Shown here in pieces: positions 22,262 through 28,750 of a stretch of DNA of 34,504 nucleotides. Origin of the DNA: Gloeomargarita sp. SKYG116 (lineage in GTDB: Bacteria; Cyanobacteriota; Cyanobacteriia; Gloeomargaritales; Gloeomargaritaceae); contig JANWVM010000024.1 in NCBI GenBank assembly GCA_025056115.1, forward strand, positions 1-34,504, in the 5' to 3' direction. Every line of letters begins with the position of its first letter. Within the stretch, counting starts at the first letter, position 1. A program made the position numbers and the translations under genes. The notes beneath the pieces are model-generated. The model was not told where the DNA came from and searched no databases. It worked only from the letters and a program-made list of their open reading frames with translations.

Positions 22262-22829
22262 CCCCCATCTCACCCTGGTAACCGGCCCCAGTCGTTCCGG
22301 CAAAAGTCGCTGGGCGGAGCATCTGGCTGACCAATCCGGTTTACCCGTGCTGTACGTGGCGACCGCCGATGCTGATCCGAACGATGCAGAGTGGCAAGCC
22401 CGGATTCAAGCCCATCGCCAGCGCCGTCCCCCCCACTGGCAAACGCTGGAGCCGCCTGTGGATTTGGTCGCCCTGTGCGCGCAACCACCGCCCCAGACCT
22501 GCTTGCTGGTGGATTCCCTCGGCACCTGGGTCGCCCAATTTTTGGAGATGCCGGATAGGGAGTGGCAATTCTTGCAAAGTCAATGGGTGAAAACGCTCAT
22601 GGCGCTTACCAGTCCCGTGATTTTGGTGGCGGAAGAAGTGGGGTGGGGCGTTGTACCTGCTTACCCATCAGGGCGTTTGTTCCGCGACCGGCTAGGGGAA
22701 CTGGTCCAAACAATCGGCGCGCAGGCGGGTCACGTCTATTTGGTCACCGGCGGTTGGGTGCTCAATCTCACGCAACTGGGGCAACCGCTCTCTAACTGGG
22801 ATTATCGGGATTCTGTACCCCCCGCATGA
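22251..22829 (+). CDS. cobU: adenosylcobinamide kinase / guanylyltransferase CobU
   Basis: CobU phosphorylates adenosylcobinamide and then attaches GMP, giving the GDP-activated intermediate of vitamin B12 (pseudocobalamin) assembly. The 192-residue product has the family P-loop GPSRSGKS near the N-terminus, the LLVDSLGTWVAQFL block, VILVAEEVGWGVVPAYPSGR and the C-terminal FRDRLGELVQTIGAQA with the closing VYLVTGG. Length fits. The ATG at 22251 lies inside the end of the upstream gene, so translation is probably coupled. Its 3' end overlaps kaiC on the other strand by 38 bases. No cobalamin riboswitch is visible upstream and no other cob gene is here. A GTG one codon later is a possible alternative start. 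Confidence 0.93.
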   Translation: MVRNPHLTLVTGPSRSGKSRWAEHLADQSGLPVLYVATADADPNDAEWQARIQAHRQRRPPHWQTLEPPVDLVALCAQPPPQTCLLVDSLGTWVAQFLEMPDREWQFLQSQWVKTLMALTSPVILVAEEVGWGVVPAYPSGRLFRDRLGELVQTIGAQAGHVYLVTGGWVLNLTQLGQPLSNWDYRDSVPPA

Positions 22830-24339
22830 TCCGCGACAGCTCCGCTTTTTCGTCCACCGCCACCCGCGTCGGCGACCCGCTGATAATGCGCTCCAAATTG
22901 CGGAAAGAATCGCGAATATCAGGGCCTTTGTCAGTAATCACATACTCCCGAATCCCCTTGTCGTGCCACGACCCCCGCATTTTGAACACATTGATCGCCC
23001 GCGAAATCTCGCCCCGGATTTCCACATATTGCAGCAGCAGAATCGTGTCTGTGATGGTGGAAATGTGGGATTCGGTAATCGAATGTAACCCCAGAAACTG
23101 GTCAAGGGTATTGGTGAAAAAGCCCGTGATTTCCTGTTGCTTGGCAAACCCCGTCACCCCAATCACAAATTGCCGGAAGGCATTGTTGCTCACCCCTCGC
23201 GCCAAAGCAGATAGGGAATCAATGGCAAAGCACGATGGCCGAAAACTAGAAATTTCCGAGCGGATGATCTGTAAATGGTCTTCCAAACCCGTGGATTCGG
23301 GATAGGCGCAAATGATCTTGAGCAATCCCTGGCGTTCAAACCGTTCAAAATCCACACCCCACGACGACGCATTGCGAGCCAGTTGCGCGCGAGATTCTTC
23401 ATAGGCAAACAGCAACGCCCGCTCCCCCCGTTGACAAGCATGTTCCAAAAAGCGACTGACCAACAGGGTTTTGCCCGTACCAGTTGCGCCCGTGGCCAAG
23501 ATAATCGAGTCTTTGAAAAAGCCGCCACCACACATCTCGTCCAACTTGGGAATCCCCGACGAGACCCGCACATTCGATGACCGTTGTGTCAGTTGCATGG
23601 CCCCCAGCGGGAAGATACTCAAGCCCTCATTGGTAATCGTAAACGGATATTCCCCCTTCATGTGGGTCGTGCCGCGCAACTTGAGAATTTCAATCGTGCG
23701 ATGTCGCCGTTCCATTTCTAAAACATTGCGCAGGATCACGACGTTATCGGAAACAAACTCTTCTACATCAAAGCGGGCAATTGGGCCGTATTCATCAATT
23801 CGCTCGGTGGTCATGACCGTGGTGACTTGGAGCTTCTTCAAGCGGGACACCAGGATAAAAAGCTGGTTGCGGATCATGGAAGCTCCATTGTTGGCGCTGT
23901 ATTGCTGGAAAATGGCCGTCACGGAGTCAATCGAGACCCGCTTGGCTTTGAATTTTTCCACGGCGTATTCAATGCGAGCAATCAGCCCTGACAGGTCAAA
24001 ATCGCCAATAATTTGTTGCCCTTCTGGTTCTGGCGATGCATCTAAAATAAACAGTTTGCCCTGGTCAATGAGCGCCTGGAGATTCCAACCGAAACTCAGC
24101 GCATTTTTAATAATATCTTCGGGAGACTCTTCAAAGGTGACAAAAATACCCGGTTCATCAAAGTGAATGATGCCGTTGTAGAGAAATTGCAGGGCAAAAA
24201 TGGTTTTTCCTGTGCCCGACGTCCCACTGACAATCGTGCAGCGCCCAGCCGGTAATCCCCCGTGACTGACTTCGTCAAACCCTTCGATTAACGTCCGAAT
24301 TTTTTGCACACCCACTGGGGTGGTCTTTCCGTCGGCCAT
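22792..24339 (-). CDS. kaiC: circadian clock ATPase/kinase KaiC
   Basis: KaiC is the hexameric core of the cyanobacterial clock, with slow ATPase and cycling phosphorylation. The 515-residue product has two RecA-like lobes. The CI lobe has Walker A GTSGTGKT (39-46) and the catalytic pair Glu70-Glu71 in FVTFEESPED. The CII lobe has Walker A GATGTGKT (284-291) and Glu314-Glu315 in LLFAYEESRAQL. The phosphorylation sites are Ser427 and Thr428 in ITESHISTITDT, with Thr422, each four lower than in Synechococcus elongatus (431, 432, 426). The C-terminal A-loop region (FRNLERIISGSPTRVAVDEK), where KaiA binds, is present. AGGA precedes the ATG and kaiB ends two bases upstream. All key residues are intact. 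Confidence 0.98.
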   Translation of the reverse strand: MADGKTTPVGVQKIRTLIEGFDEVSHGGLPAGRCTIVSGTSGTGKTIFALQFLYNGIIHFDEPGIFVTFEESPEDIIKNALSFGWNLQALIDQGKLFILDASPEPEGQQIIGDFDLSGLIARIEYAVEKFKAKRVSIDSVTAIFQQYSANNGASMIRNQLFILVSRLKKLQVTTVMTTERIDEYGPIARFDVEEFVSDNVVILRNVLEMERRHRTIEILKLRGTTHMKGEYPFTITNEGLSIFPLGAMQLTQRSSNVRVSSGIPKLDEMCGGGFFKDSIILATGATGTGKTLLVSRFLEHACQRGERALLFAYEESRAQLARNASSWGVDFERFERQGLLKIICAYPESTGLEDHLQIIRSEISSFRPSCFAIDSLSALARGVSNNAFRQFVIGVTGFAKQQEITGFFTNTLDQFLGLHSITESHISTITDTILLLQYVEIRGEISRAINVFKMRGSWHDKGIREYVITDKGPDIRDSFRNLERIISGSPTRVAVDEKAELSRIMRGVQNPDNPS

Positions 24340-24341
24340 AG

Positions 24342-24671
24342 TTATCCTGAGTTCTCTGATGTTTGTTCTTCTTCCACCAATTCATCATACAAGAGGTCTA
24401 AGCCAATTAAGACCTTTTCCCGGTCGGACAAGTCGCCGATGATCCGCCGCACCGGTGGGGGAAGAATCCGCGCGAGGGTGGGCGTCGCCAAAATCTTATC
24501 TTCTTCCGCTAGCCGGGGATTGGCCAAAATGTCAATCACTTTGAGCGTGTAAACTCCCTTAAATTCCGTCGCTAAAATGTCTCGCAAGGTGGCTAAAGCC
24601 CGCACAGAATTAGGCGTGTTACCGGCCACATACAGCTTGAGAATATAAACTTTTTTGGTGCGACGATTCAT
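24342..24671 (-). CDS. kaiB: circadian clock protein KaiB
   Basis: KaiB switches between two folds, binds the CI ring of phosphorylated KaiC and sequesters KaiA, driving the dephosphorylation phase. From the ATG at 24669-24671 the product has 109 residues, normal for KaiB. Conserved phrases are [41 protein letters not shown] and [22 protein letters not shown], with a short acidic tail. The start codon overlaps the kaiA stop (ATGA), and AGGAG sits seven bases upstream inside kaiA, so translation is coupled. A start further upstream in the same frame would add unrelated residues and is not used. kaiC follows after two bases. Confidence 0.97.
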
Positions 24672-25063
24672 GGGGTTTCTCCTGCAGGTGGTATCTCGGT
24701 CAACGCACGGCGGTAGCGCTCGCACAGGTGGGCAATCACATCAATCAGGGTCAGCCGGTAATCCAACACCAACTCCTCGCTGCGCCCTTCTAATTTTAGC
24801 TGCTTGGTTAGCTCATCCATGAATTGCACATGAATCCCGAGAATTTCTGACACGGGCAAGTTAATCAGGTAGGCCAGGTGGGTAAACTCGGCGATCCGCT
24901 CGGGCAAGTGGGGGTCATCGCGAAAGTACAGGAGAATAATTTGGTGATAGAGCGACTGTAGCCGGTTGAGCCAGCGTTGCCGTTCTTCCTGGGAAAGACA
25001 ACCCCAAAAGTGCTGGGGATTCCGGCGAGGGGAAGGGTCGCCGCACACGGACGCAGAATCCAT
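24668..25063 (-). CDS. kaiA: short-form circadian protein KaiA
   Basis: KaiA stimulates KaiC autophosphorylation by pulling on its A-loops. The 131-residue product corresponds only to the C-terminal four-helix domain of the 284-residue Synechococcus elongatus protein: [53 protein letters not shown] and [20 protein letters not shown]. The first 20 or so residues (Ser/Pro/Arg-rich) match nothing I know. The N-terminal pseudo-receiver domain is absent, and no frame upstream could hold it because truB ends ten bases away. Similar short KaiA forms are known in Nostoc. The dimer and KaiC-binding helices look complete, so stimulation of KaiC should be possible, while input through the pseudo-receiver cannot be. 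It is in the operon truB-kaiA-kaiB-kaiC. Confidence 0.95.
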
Positions 25064-25072
25064 CGCTGCCCA

Positions 25073-25963
25073 CTAACACGCGGAACGGGGATCAGCCAGA
25101 ACGAGGTGCGGTTTCAGCGTCTGCTCCCTCGTCCGTTGGCCAATCCCTAAAAAATGTCCTTGTTCATCGTACACCCGCCACCAGGGGGATGCCTGCACTG
25201 GCCCGTCCTGAGGTTGGCCATAGCACCACCGTTGGGCTTGGGCGCGGGTCAACGTGACTGCCGGTAGATGGTGGAGGTAATGGTCTAAAGGGTCTAGTTG
25301 CCAGTCCCCGGCTTGGCAATGGGCGTAGCATTGCTCCAGCGTCAGGCTCCGGGTGATGTCCATGCCACCGCTGGCGGTGCGCTCCAGAGCGCTTAACGTC
25401 GCCGGGATGCCCAAGCGTTGCCCAATATCCCGCGCCAGCGACCGGATGTACGTCCCGCTCCCGCAATGCACGTCTAGGGTTAACTCGGGGAAATCCCCGC
25501 CTTGCCAATCTCGGATGGCTAGATCATAGATTTCGACCGACCGCTCGGGCAAATCCACCGCCTGTCCTTGTCGCGCCAAGTCGTAGGCCCGTTGTCCTTG
25601 GATATGGATGGCGCTAAACGCTGGGGGTTTCTGGGCAATGACCCCAATGAATTCGGGTAACACCGCCTGGACGGTCGCCAGGGTCAAATGCGGCACCGGC
25701 TGCTGCGTCACCAGGTCACCCGCTAAATCATCCGTGGTCGTTTGCACCCCAAACCGCACCCGCGCCCGGTAGCGTTTGTCTGCTGGTAGAAACGTCAACA
25801 ATCGGGTCGCCCGTCCAACCGCAATCGGTAACACACCTGTCGCAAGAGGGTCGAGCGTCCCCCCATGGCCAACACGCCGCTCCCGCAACCAGCGCCGAAT
25901 TTTGGTCACGCAGTCATGGGACGTTAGACCTGCTGGTTTGTACAGGTTGATAAACCCATCCAT
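25073..25963 (-). CDS. truB: tRNA pseudouridine-55 synthase TruB
   Basis: TruB converts uridine 55 in the T-loop of tRNAs to pseudouridine. From the ATG at 25961-25963 (MDGFINLYKPAG) the product has 296 residues, typical for the family. The catalytic Asp lies in GGTLDPLATGVLPIAVG, followed by RYRARVRFGVQTTTDD, the KPPAFSAIHIQGQRAY helix, and the later CGSGTYIRSLARDIG motif; a C-terminal domain with LTRAQAQRWCYG follows. An ATG at 25994-25996 and an upstream GTG would add residues before the conserved start. It ends ten bases before kaiA, so it is the first gene of a truB-kaiABC transcript. The leader upstream holds a promoter and a terminator-like hairpin. Confidence 0.95.
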   Translation of the reverse strand: MDGFINLYKPAGLTSHDCVTKIRRWLRERRVGHGGTLDPLATGVLPIAVGRATRLLTFLPADKRYRARVRFGVQTTTDDLAGDLVTQQPVPHLTLATVQAVLPEFIGVIAQKPPAFSAIHIQGQRAYDLARQGQAVDLPERSVEIYDLAIRDWQGGDFPELTLDVHCGSGTYIRSLARDIGQRLGIPATLSALERTASGGMDITRSLTLEQCYAHCQAGDWQLDPLDHYLHHLPAVTLTRAQAQRWCYGQPQDGPVQASPWWRVYDEQGHFLGIGQRTREQTLKPHLVLADPRSAC

Positions 25964-26009
25964 GCAGGGGTTGCGCGCGGTGAAAAGCCTTGGCATAAAA
26001 AGCAGAAAA

Positions 26010-26044
26010 GACACCGACGACTGGCCGTGTTTCGTCTCGGTGCC
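26010..26044 (-). terminator. terminator-like hairpin in the truB-kaiABC leader
   Basis: On the minus strand GGCACCG (26038-26044) pairs with CGGTGTC (26010-26016) and ACGA (26032-26035) with TCGT (26017-26020), with two bulged bases and an 11-base loop. It is followed by TTTT and, seven bases on, TTTTT. It lies downstream of the promoter at 26078-26107, so it may act as an attenuator rather than only as the end of the upstream operon. Confidence 0.6.
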
Positions 26045-26077
26045 TTTCCTGGTTCGCTCCTCACACACACTGAGTTC

Positions 26078-26107
26078 ACTATATCAGTAGGGTACGGGGT
26101 TTGTCAC
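26078..26107 (-). promoter_or_regulatory. candidate promoter of truB-kaiABC
   Basis: On the minus strand GTGACA (26102-26107) and TATAGT (26078-26083) are 18 bases apart; each matches consensus at five of six positions. Transcription would start near 26071 and give a leader of about 110 bases with the hairpin at 26010-26044. Confidence 0.5.
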
Positions 26108-26170
26108 GGGGGAGATTGATAAGAATTTCTAAGGCAAAAAGGGCGAAAGGGCTACTGGCGTTCAGTTTGG

Positions 26171-27187
26171 CTAATTTCTCAGGGCCAACGCGCCCCCCGG
26201 CACCAGGTCTTCCAGGATAAACCGAATACCCCGAAAGCGCTGAATCACGGGGCTGCAATGCCATTCTTGACTGACAAAGTATTGCATTAGTTCCCCGGCG
26301 CGCCGGCTGGCGGGAGTGTCTAAGAGTCCCAGGTAGTAACCGGCGCTGTGGTGGCTATCGGGGCGGGCCAGTTGGGGGAGTTGATGCAGGCGTTGGATGG
26401 TGCGCCAAACCTGGGTTTGCAGGACGTTCCAAAAGTCGGTGTAGCGCATGTTGCTAAAGGCTTCGGCCACCAGGTCGTGCCGGTCTTGGATGAGGATGGT
26501 CTGACCGCGCAACCCTGGCGGCAATTCTTCCAGCAAGATGACCGGGCCGTAGCCGAGGATGAAAATCTGCTCCTGCCAGCGGGTGTAGTCCCCAAAAAAG
26601 TGGGTGAGAATGTAGGTCGCCAGCGCGGTGATGATGAGTCCCTGGCTGTGGGCAGCCACTAGGATCGGGACGCCGGCGTGAATCCCCTGGGCCAGCTCGT
26701 AGGCCAAGCGCAAGGTTGCACAGGAAGCTCCCGCCGGGTAATCGCCGTAGAAGTACTTGAGCCAATCGGGCCAGGTGAGTTGGTTGATAAAGGGTAGTTG
26801 TCGCAACAGTTCGCCGTCTAAAAGACCAGCGCCAGTGGCAGCTTGGGGGAGATAGTCCCGTAAATCCGCATCGGGCGGTAAATCCGGTTGGTTCAACAGG
26901 TGTTGCAACAGGCGGCTGTAATTGGCCAGGCGTTGCTCAGCAGCGGGGGTTGGCTGCTGGTATTGCCACAGTTCCGAACGCCCCAGGATGCTCTCTAGGA
27001 CGTCGCTCTGCCAATCGCTGCTAGCGTTGTGGACACCCCGTACATGGGCATCGGGCGCCATCCGTTGCAGGGCTTGGATATCCCGCTGTTGCTTGTCCGG
27101 GGTGGAGGTCACGCCGTTGATATGCAGGATAAGCCGGTTGCGACCTACGCTGGGGTGTAACTCAATCACTGCGCCGTCGCAGGGCAT
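26171..27187 (-). CDS. alpha/beta-hydrolase-like protein of unknown function
   Basis: I do not recognise a named family. The 338-residue product begins with a beta strand and oxyanion-like segment (LILHINGVTSTP), has a long helical cap region (about 60-155), and then the nucleophile elbow VAAHSQGLIITALA with Ser in the HSQG motif. After it come FILGYGPVILLEELPPG, an Asp-containing IQDRHDLVAEAF and a His-rich PDSHHSAGYYLGLLD, which could supply the acid and base of a Ser-Asp-His triad. There is no signal peptide, so a cytoplasmic lipase-, esterase- or acyltransferase-like enzyme is possible. It starts seven bases after pepA ends and is probably co-transcribed with it. The 103 bases after its stop lead to the truB promoter. 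Confidence 0.7.
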   Translation of the reverse strand: MPCDGAVIELHPSVGRNRLILHINGVTSTPDKQQRDIQALQRMAPDAHVRGVHNASSDWQSDVLESILGRSELWQYQQPTPAAEQRLANYSRLLQHLLNQPDLPPDADLRDYLPQAATGAGLLDGELLRQLPFINQLTWPDWLKYFYGDYPAGASCATLRLAYELAQGIHAGVPILVAAHSQGLIITALATYILTHFFGDYTRWQEQIFILGYGPVILLEELPPGLRGQTILIQDRHDLVAEAFSNMRYTDFWNVLQTQVWRTIQRLHQLPQLARPDSHHSAGYYLGLLDTPASRRAGELMQYFVSQEWHCSPVIQRFRGIRFILEDLVPGGALALRN

Positions 27188-27194
27188 GACGCAC

Positions 27195-28667
27195 CTACTG
27201 GTTCAACAGCCATTGCACCAGCAGGCGCACCCCAAACCCCGTCGCCCCTGGACCGCTATAGGTGTTGCCCTTTTCACTCCACACCGGGCCAGCCACATCC
27301 AAATGCGCCCAGGGCGTCTTCTGTACAAATTGCTTCAGGAACAACGCGCCCGTAATCGAACCAGCACTGCGCCCCCCTGCATTTTTCATATCGGCAATCG
27401 GGGATTTCATGCTCTCAAAGTACTTGTCTTCCAGGGGCATCCGCCAGATTTTTTCACCCGTCGCGCTGGAGGCCTGGAGCAGTTCATTAGCCAGGTCATC
27501 GCTGGTGCTCCACAGGCCGGCAATGTCGTCCCCCAGCGCCACGATACAGGCCCCCGTCAGCGTTGCCAAATCCACGATGGCGTCCACGTCCAGCTTCTCG
27601 GCATAGACCAGGGCATCGGCCAGGGTGAGACGGCCTTCGGCGTCGGTGTTGTTGACTTCAATAGTCTTGCCGTTGCTGGCGGTGAGGATGTCCCCCGGGT
27701 GCAGGGCATGGCCGTTGATCATGTTCTCTGTCGCGGCAATGATTCCGTGCACCTGCACGGGCGGCTGCAATTGCCCCAGGACTTTAAAGCACCCCAGCAC
27801 TGCCGCTGCTCCGGCCATGTCCATCTTCATGGTTTCAATGCCCCCCTGGGTTTTGAGATTCAGGCCGCCGGAGTCAAAGGTCAACCCCTTGCCGATGATT
27901 GCCAGGCGTTTCTTGGGCGTGACGGCGGGGGTGTAGGTGAGATGGATGAACTTGGGCGGGGTATCCGAACCCTGGGCAACCCCTAAAAAGGCCCCCATCC
28001 CCAACCGCTGGCAATCTTCGCGCTCCAGGATGGTGACATTAAACCCGTAGGTTTGCGCCAGGGACAGGGCCGTTTCCGCCAGGGTGGTTGGCGTGACCAC
28101 ACTCGCCGGCGCATTGACCAACTCCCGCGCCAGGATGACGCCGGAAACCACCTTTTGGGCCTGCTCAATGCCGGCTTGCCCGCCGGAAATGCTGAGAAAT
28201 TCCACCCGTTCCAGCACGGGTGGCTTGTCTTCCGGGTCGGATTTGAAGCGGTTGTCCTGGTGCAGCGCCAGCAACATCCCTTCGGTCAAGGCGGCGGTCA
28301 GGGCATCCGCGGGCTGGTCGGTCGGCGGGACGTACAACCCCAACTGCCGGGCCTTGTGGGTTTTGGCGGCTTTGGCGCTGGCGGCGGCGGCTTGGCGATA
28401 GGGTTCTAGATAGCTGCCGTTGCGCTTGCCCAGTCCCACCAGAGCAAGTTTTTTCACGGGACTGCCAGCCCCGAGGCGCACCACCTGCGCATGACCAGGC
28501 TTGCCCTTGAATTCAGTCTCGTCCAGGAATTCCTGCAAGGCGTTCCCCAGCCGGTCGTTGAGGGCTGCGACATCCCCAGTCAGTGCCACCTCATCCTGCC
28601 AAAAGCCCACGCACAGCAAGTCACCCGTCCAATCCTGGGGCGCTGTGGTCACCGTCACAAATTCCAT
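27195..28667 (-). CDS. pepA: leucyl aminopeptidase PepA (M17)
   Basis: PepA removes N-terminal amino acids from peptides in the cytoplasm, using two metal ions; some members also bind DNA. From the ATG at 28665-28667 the product has 490 residues, the usual length. The N-terminal non-catalytic domain is followed by the M17 catalytic domain with [15 protein letters not shown] (metal-binding Lys and Asp), [13 protein letters not shown], and the signature [17 protein letters not shown], then [18 protein letters not shown] lies about ten bases upstream of this ATG; fifteen further codons in frame upstream are not needed. A TACAAT (minus strand 28697-28702) is a likely -10. It is divergent from the MFS gene. 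The hydrolase-like gene follows after seven bases. Confidence 0.96.
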
Positions 28668-28696
28668 CGTTTTCCCATCCTGAGCGCACATTTTCC

Positions 28697-28702
28697 ATTG
28701 TA
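28697..28702 (-). promoter_or_regulatory. -10 element before pepA
   Basis: TACAAT on the minus strand, 30 bases before the pepA ATG; the -35 position (TTCGGC) is weak. Confidence 0.35.
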
Positions 28703-28750
28703 GTCGCTGCACCCCTTAGGCCGAAGTCGTACTGCTTTTGCCTAACTCGA

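Follow-up and report, generated by a model that had tools for sequence, protein, structure and literature searches.

Gene order and features of the locus

The window, that is, the whole stretch of 34,504 nucleotides analysed here, is contig JANWVM010000024.1 of Gloeomargarita sp. SKYG116 (genome G000). Its minus strand carries, in this order, pepA, orf338, a leader region, truB, kaiA, kaiB and kaiC, all assigned using Pfam with the exception of orf338. The genes and features considered below are as follows.

27195 to 28712, minus strand: pepA, leucyl aminopeptidase (PF00883, PF02789)
26171 to 27187, minus strand: orf338, directly upstream of yfr2 copy 'a'; conserved, no Pfam match
26115 to 26130, minus strand: conserved element 5' of the promoter, AGAAATTCTTATCAAT, seen by eye
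26078 to 26107, minus strand: predicted promoter of the sRNA gene; -35 box GTGACA (26107-26102), -10 box TATAGT (26083-26078), 18-nt spacer ending in TGn
26001 to 26070, minus strand: yfr2 (Cyano-1) sRNA gene, copy 'a' (Rfam RF01701 and covariation)
26057 to 26068, minus strand: 5' tail GUGUGUGAGGAG, complement of the Yfr1 motif CUCCUCACAC
26004 to 26050, minus strand: stem and loop, doubling as the sRNA terminator; 17 pairs, 12-nt loop at 26022-26033, bulge at 26018
25964 to 26003, minus strand: 40-nt spacer between the stem and the truB ATG, including the T run at 25997-26001
25073 to 25963, minus strand: truB, start MDGF at 25963 (PF01509)
24668 to 25063, minus strand: kaiA, C-terminal domain only, 131 aa (PF07688)
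24342 to 24671, minus strand: kaiB, inferred start MNRR (PF07689); the in-frame ORF begins at 24725
22792 to 24339, minus strand: kaiC (PF06745, two stretches)

In the related genome G003 a stop codon lies directly before the same truB ATG. Short forms of KaiA are also present in relatives of the same family, and kaiA of G004 (L107:3661-5149) is split by an insertion of ~1 kb bearing a DDE transposase ORF. In orf338 the string AHSQG, noticed by eye, hints at an alpha/beta hydrolase.

The leader forms a conserved long hairpin

A sequence-only reading of this DNA had described a terminator-like hairpin with a stem of about 11 bp ahead of truB. The hairpin is real and its coordinates were correct, but the stem is longer, with 26034-26050 pairing to 26004-26021 through 17 pairs around the single bulged base at 26018, and five T following immediately at 25997-26001. 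A simple terminator scan called nothing at the hairpin because that scan admits loops of 3-8 nt only, which the 12-nt loop exceeds. Folding of the 77-nt RNA gave -30.5 kcal/mol (z -3.5), with 0/200 shuffles as low.

Fourteen family copies from eight genomes could be aligned with MAFFT free of gaps, and in this alignment 6/20 consensus pairs were changed on both sides. We also aligned 31 sequences, comprising eight family rows (from the 14 copies, near-duplicates omitted) and 23 others, which were picked among the best Cyano-1 matches so that the alignment leans to good matches. Here 17 of the 18 stem pairs were changed on both sides with pairing kept, and the covariation score was 0.684 versus 0.242 in shuffles (0/500 as high), for a structure derived from the same alignment. 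In the same alignment 91.8% of cells were paired compared with 68.7% after shuffling, and the values were much lower when partners were slid by 1-3 columns. Between G000 and G003 the RNA is identical at 73/73 aligned positions; their TruB proteins are 76% identical.

The bulged base stands at the matching place in the consensus of the 31 sequences, and the sequence of the 5' tail is conserved across the aligned copies. In the single-sequence fold of the G000 RNA the tail is partly paired with the T run; in the consensus folds it is free. An RNA starting at about 26071, as judged from the -10 box and the first position of the Cyano-1 model, would begin with AGUGUGUGUGAGGAGCGAACC and continue into the 17-pair stem.

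The leader RNA probably belongs to the Yfr2 (Cyano-1) family

When 321 bases were scanned against Rfam, the sole credible match was RF01701 (Cyano-1), which covered the whole model at 26070-26001 on the minus strand with 40.9 bits (E 6.8e-6), the cut-off being 41. Copy 'a' is thus 0.1 bit short, and scanning the entire window with the cut-off applied listed nothing; orthologues in the congeners G002, G004 and G006 and the copy of G007 do reach it. A match to MIR8008 (18.4 bits versus a cut-off of 66) was dismissed as chance.

Published marks of Yfr2 include a conserved single-stranded 5' end and loop, a long stem, a 12-nt loop and a bulge at -4 from the loop (PMC2662882, in its description of the family), and the Cyano-1 motif is described as characteristic of the Yfr2 family in the relevant passage of PMC8400943, citing Gierga et al. 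2009. The window copy has the 12-nt loop on a long stem, its 17 pairs being supported by covariation, has the bulge at -4 (three pairs, then the bulged 26018), and is preceded by a predicted promoter of its own. Shared with Yfr2/RF01701 are the sequence of the 5' tail, the size of the loop, the bulge, the predicted promoter and the presence of more than one copy per genome, along with an Rfam match just short of the cut-off. The copy differs in the loop sequence, which reads GAAACACGGCCA, in falling 0.1 bit below the cut-off and in its neighbour genes, the last being usual in the family. The 3' end of the RNA probably falls in the T run at 25997-26001.

The second copy of the same genome, 'b' (G000:C200:4017-4089), scores 31.9 bits and has its own promoter-like pair, and copy 'b' was found in 6/7 genomes of the genus. 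Of the 59 genomes searched, 53 yielded Cyano-1 with E <= 0.05 and 30 a match above the cut-off; the filters were strict and could have passed over weak copies. A published table assigns Cyano-1 values in three columns, which we take to stand for RNA, cis-regulatory and switch. Its entry there reads y/n/n (PMC2864571, in the table concerned).

A predicted promoter precedes the RNA

The promoter scan identified GTGACA-18-TATAGT, with 10/12 consensus matches and TG preceding the -10 box. This site tops the two promoter-like sites within 1.2 kb, where shuffles gave a mean of 0.6 (sd 0.9). Over 6.15 kb, the same scan gave 3 sites against 2.7 expected, which is chance level, and agreement with the consensus is thus by itself weak proof of a promoter. 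What upholds the call is the presence of a like pair upstream of 14/14 yfr2 copies from the eight family genomes, each with 9-10/12 matches and TG before the -10 box, and with a spacer of 17 in a single copy and of 18 in the 13 others; the best pair within 45 nt was taken for each copy without a shuffled control. The -35/-10 pair proposed in the sequence-only reading at 26078-26107 is present, and both it and the covarying stem are conserved.

Upstream of the promoter of yfr2 copy 'a' (yfr2a), the element AGAAATTCTTATCAAT was found by eye to be identical in five of the seven yfr2a copies of the genus and one base off in the remaining two; it is possibly an activator site.

Downstream of the stem, the promoter scan found no promoter-like site in the 40-nt gap to truB. 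A single 9/12 site lies inside truB (25552-25523) and is no better than chance. A promoter within truB or kaiA, or one lacking a -35 box, could also exist.

The 5' tail is complementary to Yfr1

The tail forms a 10-nt perfect complement with the Yfr1 motif, although the total energy of the Yfr1-Yfr2 duplex is not outstanding, with 51 of 500 mononucleotide-shuffled Yfr1 sequences as low. Yfr1 of the host is a separate gene on another contig (G000:C11:40543-40608, RF01116, 44.2 bits versus a cut-off of 38), flanked by IMP-dehydrogenase-like and thioredoxin genes, the position at which most yfr1 genes are reported in the part of PMC2190773 that treats their location. The RF01116 search recovered Yfr1 in 7/7 genomes of the genus. 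We used it in place of a pattern search with ACTCCTCACACAC, which in 24 relatives gave nine sites in seven genomes, most of them unlike Yfr1. The string CTCCTCACACAC on the plus strand at 26057-26068 was rejected as a Yfr1 or other sRNA gene, as it is simply the opposite strand of the Yfr2 tail and the genuine Yfr1 gene lies on C11.

For Prochlorococcus MED4 sequences, PMC6778093 describes an E. coli reporter assay in which Yfr2 opposes the action of Yfr1, and cleavage of Yfr2 by RNase E that is prevented when Yfr1 or Yfr10 binds to it. By analogy with the family, the gene in the window may produce an RNA of about 65-80 nt that accumulates to high levels and has Yfr1 as a pairing partner.

The yfr2 unit is probably older than its association with the clock operon

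The order pepA-orf338-yfr2a is kept in all seven genomes of the genus, and truB-kaiABC stands behind yfr2a in three of them (G000, G001 and G003). In G002, G004, G005 and G006 truB is far off on the chromosome or on another contig. G002 and G004 each have a divergent pentapeptide gene before truB, and G006 has an FtsH-like gene there; copy 'a' of G006 has a His_biosynth (hisF-like) ORF at +235. The stretch behind one yfr2a copy consists partly of N, and that part was excluded from judgement. In the outgroup G007, yfr2 is likewise away from truB; truB itself adjoins kaiA in 8/8 family genomes. A tree built from TruB and the first part of KaiC of the eight genomes placed G000, G001 and G003 in one clade (support 99, on these two proteins), which fits a single change of neighbour. 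Since the yfr2 unit is kept without the clock genes in 4/7 genomes, it is not clock-specific, and it appears to be an independent sRNA gene behind which truB-kaiABC came to lie in one branch of the genus.

Comparing the tables of 59 genomes by eye, we found Cyano-1 less than 2 kb from truB only in G000, G001, G003 and G021; at the thresholds used, truB went unmatched in two of the genomes and Cyano-1 in six. G021 was rejected as an equivalent arrangement: its Cyano-1 lies 1.4 kb upstream of truB, but an opposite-strand ORF intervenes.

Preferred and alternative readings of the leader

With a probability of about 0.78, we read 26107-25997 on the minus strand as a self-standing gene of the Yfr2 family and truB-kaiABC as the downstream part of an actuaton, the figure applying to both parts jointly. 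Actuatons, as described in the pertinent text of PMC5386190, are sRNA-driven genes expressed via incomplete termination, and Yfr2b and Yfr2c are named among them. PMC2662882 reports for Synechocystis 6803 that slr0199 has its mapped start in common with Yfr2b, and sll1477 with Yfr2c, and that separate starts for the two protein genes could not be mapped. Our locus resembles these pairs in that a Yfr2 gene immediately precedes a protein gene on the same strand (here truB, 40 nt away) for which no promoter of its own is evident, and in that the same cassette is free-standing in relatives, truB being behind it in 3/7 and not in 4/7 genomes of the genus. It differs in that the downstream operon is truB-kaiABC and that read-through is predicted. 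A leader-like arrangement, defined as an ORF of >=90 aa on the same strand starting <=250 nt behind Yfr2, was found in 10 of 21 loci (8 of 29 Cyano-1 loci were omitted, and the ORFs were called mechanically, some probably being false).

With only 40 nt and no promoter-like site between the stem and the truB ATG, any transcript initiated upstream has to cross the hairpin to reach truB, as the sequence-only reading had argued. Judging from the family, most transcripts from the yfr2 promoter would halt at the stem and yield an abundant sRNA, while a minority would pass it into truB-kaiABC. Read-through from pepA-orf338 would add to these, and together they would account for some or all of the truB-kaiABC mRNA, making the clock operon the downstream part of an actuaton. 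Read-through into truB-kaiABC, and any effect on kai, are proposed here by analogy. The T run behind the stem has five T in G000, four in G003 and two or three in the four free-standing copies; it is thus longer in the three genomes with truB behind it and not weaker after the change of neighbour, giving no sign that termination was relaxed for read-through.

Alternatively, the two units could be pure neighbours, with yfr2 terminating fully and truB-kaiABC being started within the 40-nt spacer or within truB. The strong stem with its five T would suit this, as would the 9/12 site within truB and the fact that part of the family is free-standing, such as Yfr2a of Synechocystis in the account given in PMC2662882. 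We none-the-less consider it unlikely: the spacer holds no promoter-like site, and the one within truB is no better than chance and could not serve truB itself.

A more elaborate version of read-through would have the clock operon wired into a Yfr1-Yfr2 network. The amount of KaiABC in this branch would then be governed by Yfr1 together with a light-responsive yfr2 promoter, read-through mRNAs would carry the Yfr2 tail as their 5' end with a helix between the tail and the truB spacer, and Yfr1 would open this helix or recruit or block RNase E. The Yfr2a promoter of Synechocystis is stimulated by light, up to 300% in the published text concerned. In the modelled read-through leader of G000, an extended helix enclosing the stem could arise between the tail and the truB spacer, with a gain of 15.4 kcal/mol, equalled in 3/200 spacer shuffles. 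In G003, the gain was 5.2 kcal/mol and was reached by 76/200 shuffles; the shuffle test covers these two genomes, G001 having been folded only. The tail-spacer helix is thus a lead and not a finding, and we hold the full network scheme to be improbable.

The leader could also be a dedicated attenuator that senses a signal and controls truB-kaiABC through a terminator/antiterminator switch. It shares with attenuators and riboswitch leaders the order of promoter, terminator-like stem and operon, and the tail-spacer helix possible in G000 would offer a second pairing. However, no antiterminator was found. A conserved alternative pairing of the kind that such control would suggest did not emerge, as the hairpin formed in the minimum-energy folds of all three truB-linked leaders with no rival pairing that excludes the stem, and the helix gain in G003 is well within the range of shuffles. 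The leader is also not evolutionarily tied to the operon, as four congeners keep the unit without truB-kaiABC, and its RNA matches a known sRNA family. A search of 43 further loci with a model of the 31 sequences gave no credible match in the vicinity of truB or kaiA, the two that came up being at E 0.32 and 0.5; the 44 sources scanned were 24 of 35 truB loci (the 11 non-cyanobacterial ones omitted), nine more truB loci, five kaiA loci, five family stretches and the window, some of which overlap (e.g. L058 and G006). We therefore set aside the earlier suggestion of a kai-specific control leader, which we regard as very doubtful.

Finally, it is scarcely credible that the hairpin is only the terminator of a pepA-orf338 transcript with a chance promoter match, since a simple terminator would have no need to retain the tail and loop, and the sequence, loop, tail and promoter persist in cyanobacteria in which the neighbouring genes are unrelated; with both genes upstream on the same strand and no other terminator-like site called before the stem, the hairpin may end read-through from pepA-orf338, yet that explanation, offered previously, misses the Cyano-1 sRNA gene.

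Significance of a probable Yfr2 gene before the clock operon

On the preferred reading, a puzzling leader is explained as a known sRNA gene. The locus is ordinary in kind, a Yfr2 gene and probably an actuaton, and some interest lies in what stands behind it. In the one open-access library searched, we found neither a report that places Yfr2 ahead of kai genes nor literature on truB in an operon with kaiA and kaiB; a paper that names Yfr2 and kaiABC concerned another neighbour gene.

Should read-through occur, the clock operon would be served by a promoter whose counterpart in a relative (Synechocystis Yfr2a) responds to light with increased activity, and the mRNA of the operon would carry a predicted Yfr1 binding site. 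The genus also offers a natural experiment, with the same sRNA gene standing alone in four genomes and before the clock operon in three, and a comparison of kai expression in both branches would be a test of how sRNA cassettes rewire core genes.
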